Below, in pieces: positions 1,941 to 3,700 of a stretch of 33,908 nucleotides of DNA (within the stretch, counting starts at the first letter, position 1; each line of letters opens with the position of its first letter). The notes beneath the pieces were generated by a model. That model searched no databases. It was not told where the DNA came from and was given only the letters and a program-made list of their open reading frames with translations. The DNA is taken from contig JAVHLK010000047.1 in the NCBI GenBank assembly GCA_031082285.1, forward strand, positions 1-33,908, in the 5' to 3' direction. Position numbers and translations under genes: made by a program. The stretch is from Desulfomonilaceae bacterium. Lineage in GTDB: Bacteria; Desulfobacterota; Desulfomonilia; Desulfomonilales; Desulfomonilaceae.

Positions 1941-2141
1941 TCAGGAAAAGCCGCCGGTGGAGGTCGAGCCGCAGGAACCTGCAATACTCCTCTCTATGCC
2001 TGAACATGAGAAGACGGAGAATTCCTTTCTCGTCTCATTGCTCCCGCACGAGGGACACTCCACCCGATCGCTTTCCGACGTGAAGACCAGCCTCTCGAAT
2101 TCTTTTCCACACGAGGAGCACACGTATTCAAAAATCGGCAT
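1941..2141 (-). CDS. FmdB family zinc-ribbon protein (copy 1)
   Basis: A 66-residue protein beginning MPIFEYVCSSCGKEFE with a second knuckle VECPSCGS, i.e. two CxxC pairs forming the small zinc ribbon of the FmdB/CxxC_CxxC_SSSS family. The start is fixed by the conserved MPxYEY-type N-terminus. The tail GSCGSTSTGGFS is Ser/Gly-rich as usual for the family. The precise function is not established; the first-named member was associated with a formamidase regulon, and many copies accompany redox or metal genes. It begins nine bases after the stop of the HesB-like selenoprotein on the same strand, so the two are very likely one transcript. A second copy lies at 23664-23933. Confidence 0.85.
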   Translation of the reverse strand: MPIFEYVCSSCGKEFERLVFTSESDRVECPSCGSNETRKEFSVFSCSGIERSIAGSCGSTSTGGFS

Positions 2142-2150
2142 GACTACCCC

Positions 2151-2441
2151 CTAACAACTGCAACCCTGGGCCGAAACACCGTCCAGTTCCGCTATGGGCC
2201 CAAACAGGGAGTTCTTGATCGTCAATCCGCCGGAATCCTTAATGACCTTGTGAGCGAAGGGATCGACCACCAAGGACAGTCCCTCCAGTTGAAAGGTCTC
2301 GTCCCCTTCTCGAGGCTCGTCCAGAGCCAGGCCCATACTGGGACCGCCTCAGCCGTAGCCTCCGAAGAAGACTCGCAGCGCCTGATTGTCTGCTACCTTA
2401 TCCTTGAAATAGTCTTGACTTTCCTGATCGATGGTGAACAT
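2151..2441 (-). CDS. HesB/IscA-like selenoprotein with in-frame UGA (Sec31)
   Basis: Reading from ATG at 2441 through a TGA at 2351-2349 gives a 96-residue protein: MFTIDQESQDYFKDK, then LRVFFGGYG-U-GGPSMGLALDE, ending AQGCSC. The segment around the TGA matches the A-type Fe-S carrier/HesB fold, where IscA has SGCSGM; the UGA falls exactly at that conserved cysteine, and the terminal CSC supplies the second and third conserved cysteines (C94, C96). HesB-like proteins with selenocysteine here are an established bacterial selenoprotein family. The upstream half has a Shine-Dalgarno (AGAGGT, 6 bases before ATG) and a good promoter, and a stem-loop follows the UGA directly. A conventional caller would report only 61 residues from Met36 (2336). 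Likely role: metal or Fe-S related thiol/selenol chemistry; substrate unknown. It is followed by an fmdB-like gene. Confidence 0.87.
2311..2351 (-). promoter_or_regulatory. Candidate bacterial SECIS element
   Basis: Starting with the UGA, UGAGGC (2351-2346) can pair with GCCUCG (2316-2311), and an inner stem GGUCC (2345-2341)/GGGCC (2334-2330; one U·G pair) closes a six-base loop CAGUAU. A hairpin immediately 3' of the UGA with a G near the start of a small apical loop is what SelB recognises in bacteria. The pairing was done by eye and not folded thermodynamically. Confidence 0.6.
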
Positions 2442-2484
2442 GCGATACCTCTTTGATTGTGATGATTCGAAATCCTTGGGTCGT

Positions 2485-2777: not shown

Positions 2778-3353
2778 TCAAAACCATCGTTCAACGAATC
2801 TCTTGATTGCTTCCCAGTCCTCTCCAAGAGTCGGGGGACGCGCCTGTTTCTCACAATCGCACGGTGCCGGATTTGTCCTCGATGTCCGGTCGGCGGACCG
2901 AGGTGCTGCAGGTTTCGCGTCTTCGACCGGGCCGAGATAGGGCAGGGGAGCTCCTCCCGATCCGGCGAGCCGCTTGACGGTCTTCTCAAGGCCGGCCGAG
3001 ATTCGGTCTTCACCGATCAAGATGGTCTCGCCTACGAGTATCATCGGCACGCCGAACTTCTCGGTGGAATGAATCGCTTCCAGCCGCTCCATGAGATCGT
3101 AGTGAGCACGCACGTCAATGTCGAAGACCTTCACCTTCACCGGATATCGTCTCTTCAAGACATCAATCAACTGCTTGACGTCGTCGCACTTCGGGCAGGT
3201 TTTTGAGGAAAAGAACACCAGCCGGACCGTGTTTCTCTTGTTGCCTGCGTGCGCGTCCGTTATCATCCACCAGAACAACAATGCCGTCAATACCGCCAGA
3301 GCCGCAGCTGCCGGCCGGCTCCCCTTTTGCCTCGGAACAGAGGTCGCAATCAT
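2778..3353 (-). CDS. Membrane-anchored thioredoxin/glutaredoxin-fold protein
   Basis: 191 residues from an ATG that overlaps the stop of the upstream gene in an ATGA arrangement (3353-3350), so translation is coupled; a longer in-frame start upstream is rejected for that reason. Residues 14-36 form one hydrophobic segment (signal anchor or signal peptide, AHAG near its end), followed by a thioredoxin-like core: VRLVFFSSKTCPKC with the redox pair C53-C56, then FGVPMILVGE with the expected cis-proline. The CPKC motif is nearer glutaredoxin-like thiol oxidoreductases than classical thioredoxin (CGPC). A C-terminal extension of about 60 residues contains CDC and is of unknown role. It probably acts in the periplasm on protein disulfides; partner unknown. 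Confidence 0.7.
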   Translation of the reverse strand: MIATSVPRQKGSRPAAAALAVLTALLFWWMITDAHAGNKRNTVRLVFFSSKTCPKCDDVKQLIDVLKRRYPVKVKVFDIDVRAHYDLMERLEAIHSTEKFGVPMILVGETILIGEDRISAGLEKTVKRLAGSGGAPLPYLGPVEDAKPAAPRSADRTSRTNPAPCDCEKQARPPTLGEDWEAIKRFVERWF

Positions 3354-3700
3354 CCGCCCAGAAGCCTGATCTTTGTAGGGATGGGGTAATGCACGCGCAC
3401 GTTGCGATGGGTCCGAAAGCCGCAGGCTTCTCTCTGTATGAGGAGCCATCTCAGAGCGTCCTCCGCCTTGTCTATGAGAGCGTTATATTCACGGATGGAA
3501 TCGTTGACCAGTGCAACATCGGGTCGTTCCGACTCGGAAGATCCGTTCCCGTAGCACACGATGAGGTCCTGGGCGCGCTCGCGCGCCTGCGTCGCCTTGT
3601 CGAGCAGGTCCTCGAGTCGGAGTCCTGTACTTCCGAGGCCTTCGGCCATTTCCTTGACAATATCGATTTCGGTTTCCGAGGCGTCCCGGAACATTCCCAT
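3350..3700 (-). CDS. Hypothetical helical protein, coupled to thioredoxin-fold gene
   Basis: 116 residues, start at the ATG preceded by GGAGG with six bases of spacing (TGGAGGTTTGCC before ATG at 3700). A longer frame extends to 3820 but has no ribosome site there. The protein is mostly helical: MGMFRDASETEIDIVKEMAEGLG, an ERAQDLIVCYGNG segment, then an acidic/alanine helix and a basic C-terminus HRNVRVHYPIPTKIRLLGG. There is no signal peptide or membrane segment. I do not recognise the family. The four-base overlap with the downstream thioredoxin-fold gene implies co-expression and perhaps shared function, which is inference. Confidence 0.62.
   Translation of the reverse strand: MGMFRDASETEIDIVKEMAEGLGSTGLRLEDLLDKATQARERAQDLIVCYGNGSSESERPDVALVNDSIREYNALIDKAEDALRWLLIQREACGFRTHRNVRVHYPIPTKIRLLGG

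Follow-up and report, generated by a model that had tools for sequence, protein, structure and literature searches.

IscA-like proteins, which include the A-type carriers of Fe-S clusters, have three conserved cysteines. HesB-like selenoproteins, in which the first of these positions is occupied by selenocysteine (Sec), had been catalogued by 2006 in hosts such as Syntrophobacter, Syntrophus, Desulfovibrio and Geobacter (PMC1794560), and in 2026 they were listed as TIGR01911, with the motif UxGP (PMC13188914). In Methanococcus maripaludis, mutagenesis and 75Se labelling are reported to have shown that MMJJ_08070 is a selenoprotein, and the same paper calls its function unclear (PMC11097638). 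The protein described here can be likened to MMJJ_08070 by description, as both are distant IscA relatives with a Sec residue (predicted here), although the latter is archaeal.

The window analysed here is a stretch of DNA of 33,908 nucleotides, and we conclude with near certainty that its gene at 2441-2151 on the reverse strand encodes a 96-residue HesB-like selenoprotein. The proposal, made in a sequence-only reading of the same DNA, that an in-frame UGA in this gene is decoded as Sec31 is supported by the reading frame, the conservation of the UGA, a downstream hairpin, the machinery of the host genome and the predicted fold. As in the described HesB-like selenoproteins (TIGR01911/NF038090), the predicted Sec stands at the first conserved Cys within UxGP (here UGGP), a putative bacterial SECIS element lies just after the UGA, and the hosts are anaerobes of the deltaproteobacterial type. 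In contrast to them, the clade to which this protein belongs shares no more than 26-37% identity with the other Sec-HesB proteins in the comparison, scores below both NCBIfam cut-offs, has a C-terminal half of the form VDPFALK...GGL.I...FGP.AEL...CSC, and has an FmdB-type zinc-ribbon gene after the selenoprotein gene. The kind of protein is therefore known; what appears to be new is a divergent clade in which the Sec-HesB gene sits between a glutaredoxin-like gene and an FmdB gene, in genomes where no canonical Cys A-type carrier was detected. No description of this clade and its conserved gene neighbours was found in the literature searched, and a search for Desulfomonile together with selenocysteine gave nothing relevant, only an unrelated match.

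A reading frame truncated by ordinary ORF calling

Direct reading of the sequence confirmed the frame that had been proposed: it opens with an ATG at 2441-2439 on the reverse strand, contains a single TGA at 2351-2349, and continues for 65 codons to a TAG at 2153-2151. The read-through product, MFTIDQESQDYFKDKVADNQALRVFFGGYG-U-GGPSMGLALDEP...QGCSC, has 96 residues counting Sec31, the stop codon TAG being included in the gene coordinates (2151..2441, reverse strand). The Shine-Dalgarno noticed before the ATG corresponds to a Shine-Dalgarno-like AAAGAGG at 2448..2454 (reverse strand), 6 nt upstream. The promoter that had been claimed for the gene fared less well: TTGACA at 2513-2508 is a perfect -35 hexamer, yet what follows at a spacing of 17 nt, TACTGT, is a poor -10 (3/6 match), and a promoter scan reported none, so that the promoter claim is weak.

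In the ORF list of the window the gene shows only as a 61-aa ORF at 2151..2336 (reverse strand) that starts at ATG 2336, which is exactly the truncated annotation that had been predicted. It is thus a clear example of a selenoprotein cut short by ordinary ORF calling.

Family assignment and predicted fold

The read-through protein matched the NCBIfam models NF038090 (IscA_HesB_Se; E 8e-13, residues 6-60) and TIGR01911 (HesB_rel_seleno; E 3.5e-10, residues 7-63). Both alignments cross the UGA, with A-type carrier sequence on either side of it, as had been noticed from the letters of the sequence. The scores fall short of the curated cut-offs (48.5 versus 85 for NF038090 and 40.4 versus 66.35 for TIGR01911), which are thresholds for naming and mark no biological trait. 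Three other scored family members also miss these cut-offs, as do Sec-HesB proteins from further families (among them L059, L062 and L064); because such scores are shared by four family members and by these relatives, we regard them as a sign of divergence and not of foreignness. Together with the truncation by ORF calling, scores under the naming thresholds make it likely that this protein will be overlooked across the whole bacterial family.

The UGA, codon 31 at 2349..2351 (reverse strand), falls where IscA-type proteins have their first conserved Cys: the predicted U31 aligns with Cys in the homologues L046 and L051. C94-S-C96 was read at the C-terminus, in agreement with the CSC first noticed there, and Sec31 in its loop would complete the three-ligand arrangement of A-type carriers. 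The UxGP motif appears as GYG-UGGP in the window and as UGGP or USGP throughout the family members; in one relative (L027 of genome G005) the predicted Sec-bearing peptide is GYG-U-GGPSMGLALDEPR. The terminal Cys pair varies across the clade (CSC, CGC or CC), and at one locus, L024, the protein has just one Cys at its end, which reads CSGA.

A prediction based on one sequence alone was of no use (pLDDT 38) and was superseded by an AlphaFold2 model built on a 53-row alignment (pLDDT 84). The strong PDB matches of this model are A-type carriers and their relatives (Z 8.5-11.4), namely E. coli IscA, SufA, [2Fe-2S]-bound IscA, HI1723, AQ_1857 and DsrR, with Z 9.7-11.4 for IscA, SufA and DsrR together. 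Against the IscA/SufA/ErpA group (PDB 1r94, 1s98, 2d2a, 1x0g) the predicted fold gives Z 9.7-10.8 over 82-90 aligned residues, which points to an A-type fold, and the conserved residue position is kept in the loop GGYG-U-GGP; the protein differs from this group in its predicted Sec in place of Cys, in an identity of only 18-21%, and in a terminal CSC instead of an ending of the CGCGxSF type. The top match is DsrR of Allochromatium vinosum (PDB 2k4z), which also has the A-type fold (Z 11.4, 93 residues, rmsd 3.0) at 18% identity, its Z being tied with that of IscA within 1; no dsr context was noticed beside the gene. By alignment, Sec31 would sit in the loop of the first conserved Cys, while the C-terminal CSC tail is of low confidence in the model. 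The comparison with HesB-like selenoproteins and IscA relatives, which the sequence-only reading had named as a check, thus speaks in its favour, and the IscA fold does so as well.

Conserved neighbours and the possible function

An FmdB-family zinc-ribbon gene of 66 aa lies at 1941..2141 on the reverse strand (TIGR02605, 59.7 bits against a cut-off of 31.3), its start 9 nt past the selenoprotein stop. A gene of this type is directly downstream in 17/17 family loci, whereas a scan of 39 other Sec-HesB genes showed none in that place. It is possible that the selenoprotein and the zinc-ribbon protein act together. Upstream, at 2778..3449 (reverse strand), is a glutaredoxin/thioredoxin-like gene with a CPKC motif (Pfam PF00462); by tblastn this neighbour is kept in 16 of the 17 family loci and was not found in L024. 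A hydrophobic N-terminal segment, read from its sequence, suggests that the glutaredoxin-like protein is exported or membrane-anchored. A phenylacetate-CoA-ligase-like gene at 557-1831 on the forward strand is convergent to the cluster, and is syntenic in at least 13/16 other loci.

We also searched for canonical A-type carriers with Cys. By TIGR00049 above its cut-off these were detected in 0/18 family genomes and in 8/14 control genomes, in a search that also missed the selenoprotein itself and that divergent carriers could escape. Weaker-scoring Cys relatives, in frames of 107-119 aa, occur in four genomes. The selenoprotein may therefore be the sole A-type carrier in most family genomes.

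In the mechanism that we favour, residue 31 would be Sec and would stand where A-type Fe-S carriers have the first Cys that binds the cluster. We lean towards a role in which Sec31 and the C-terminal CSC cysteines bind an Fe-S cluster or a metal, forming a selenolate/thiolate carrier. The main rival is that the protein is a thiol/selenol redox protein, with a selenenyl-sulfide between Sec31 and the C-terminal cysteines, and no Fe-S carrier. Many selenoproteins are indeed homologous to thiol oxidoreductases or have redox motifs (PMC13188914), the conserved neighbour is a glutaredoxin-like gene with CPKC, and the Fe-S carrier function of the family is so far putative. However, IscA-type carriers have the same ligand positions and the same fold as predicted here, and since the glutaredoxin-like protein is apparently exported, it is doubtful that it would partner a cytosolic carrier directly; we thus hold a pure redox role to be possible but rather unlikely.

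The carrier role can be extended to a stronger proposal, in which the cell has no A-type carrier besides the selenoprotein, and the latter works with the FmdB-type partner, so that Fe-S or metal delivery would depend on a selenolate ligand and on the supply of selenium. We put this forward only as a speculation that has a small chance of being correct. The clade nevertheless offers a concrete handle on whether selenolate can replace thiolate in an Fe-S carrier, owing to its fixed zinc-ribbon neighbour, the canonical Cys carrier that was not detected, and an apparent cultured member: relative G005 is presumably the cultured Desulfomonile tiedjei.

Conservation of the UGA and of the frame upstream

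We searched 60 related genomes, 18 of them from the same family (Desulfomonilaceae-like, the genome of the window included). The gene was found in 17 of these 18, the exception (G016) being an 82%-complete genome. All 17 homologues, 57-72% identical, have an in-frame TGA at the identical position and none has Cys there, and the protein sequence is kept on both sides of the UGA. This count and the family matches that span the UGA show that the frame is no product of chance. Many other genomes of the phylum share the same TGA. In the codons before the TGA, the family genes show abundant synonymous and little amino-acid change: for instance, an invariant Arg at -8 is written with six codons, and a Phe at -6 with TTC in eight genes and TTT in eight. 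This pattern indicates that the codons upstream of the TGA are under purifying selection. The sequence-only reading had staked its case on the upstream frame being conserved in close homologues, and the frame is kept in 17/17.

The 16 intact family members group together (100/99) in a tree built from 60 proteins, apart from the other Sec-HesB proteins; the tree has few columns and its deep forks lack support. In the remaining family homologue, L030 of genome G007, an additional TAG within the SECIS region, at about 1591-1626, breaks both the frame and the hairpin; gene decay or a sequencing error is the probable cause. In some related genomes, at L042 (G033:C172) and L035 (G027:C75), a Sec-HesB gene lies about 1 kb or less from a non-TGA homologue, and the two may be a pair of Sec and Cys isoforms.

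A candidate SECIS hairpin conserved with the UGA

Comparison of homologues, together with published limits, points to a bacterial SECIS hairpin at 2314..2328 on the reverse strand, with a 5-bp stem (GGCUC/GAGCC), a UGGAC loop, and 25 nt from the UGA to the loop. The limits given for such elements are an upper stem of 4-16 bp, a loop of 3-9 nt, a distance of 16-37 nt from the UGA, a G within the first two loop positions and an energy of at most -7.5 kcal/mol (PMC13188914); the hairpin of the window is inside all of them (5 bp, 5 nt, 25 nt, G second, -8.1 kcal/mol). The codons GCT, CTG and GAG, 22-33 nt after the UGA, show zero synonymous variation in 16 family genes (P about 4.5e-8, 1.3e-6 and 1.2e-8, respectively, from pooled codon use and with relatedness ignored), and with their flanking bases they form GGCUC-UGGAY-GAGCC. 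In ungapped counts uncorrected for relatedness, all five pairs are formed in 55/55 distinct UGA homologues across the phylum versus 0/5 Cys homologues; a match at 2124 in L025, with Cys, is spurious and lies outside the Cys set. The loop is UGGAY in 54 of the 55 UGA homologues and AGGAU in one. In three related genes (L076, L079 and L082) pair 23/33 has changed from C-G to U-A in a compensatory manner, GCT->GTT with GAG->GAA, probably in one event. The pattern UGA-N20-hairpin occurs a single time in the genome of the window, at the selenoprotein gene.

When the sequence of the window is folded alone (2311-2351), a competing structure beats the SECIS hairpin (z -0.64 versus shuffles). As the lone fold favours the competitor and its energy is ordinary against shuffled sequences, the case for the hairpin rests on comparison. 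Rfam at gathering thresholds gave no match in the window. Several family members also have a well-folding stem-loop nearer to the UGA, GGYCCC-AGYAU-GGGRCC; we rejected it as the SECIS core because it is variable in the wider set and its distance to the UGA is below the published 16-37 nt. A SECIS check on 2311-2351, suggested along with the original proposal, has thus yielded a hairpin within published limits and conserved together with the UGA.

These results bear on whether the TGA could be a real stop, in which case the gene would be a pseudogene, or a pair of neighbouring short ORFs, and translation would yield no more than the 61-aa downstream part. Such a stop would agree with the outcome of standard ORF calling, which yields this ORF alone, and the extra TAG of L030 shows that decay may occur in the clade. 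However, the TGA is shared by 17/17 family genomes and by many across the phylum, the upstream codons appear to be under purifying selection, and the hairpin is conserved only together with the TGA; that all three are kept across genera contradicts a pseudogene, and we consider a real stop highly improbable.

Selenocysteine machinery of the genome

The genome of the window (5.6 Mb, 99.9% complete) encodes the whole set of genes whose presence the Sec reading called for: selA (598.2 bits), selB (393.9), selD (366.4) and the tRNA-Sec selC (71.4), each above its curated threshold. The anticodon of the tRNA-Sec is TCA, and selA is present in 18/18 family genomes. SelB-dependent insertion of Sec at the UGA is very likely: SelB bound to the hairpin GGCUC-UGGAC-GAGCC would deliver Sec-tRNA-Sec to this codon. 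That the UGA is instead read as another amino acid (such as Trp), by a changed code or by suppression, has a next to negligible probability, for while the frame is open whatever the TGA means, the non-TGA homologues have Cys at the aligned residue, the Sec genes are complete and the hairpin goes together with the TGA. The selD gene of the same genome (L055, G000:C177:29715-30635) has one in-frame TGA, and its product is probably itself a selenoprotein.
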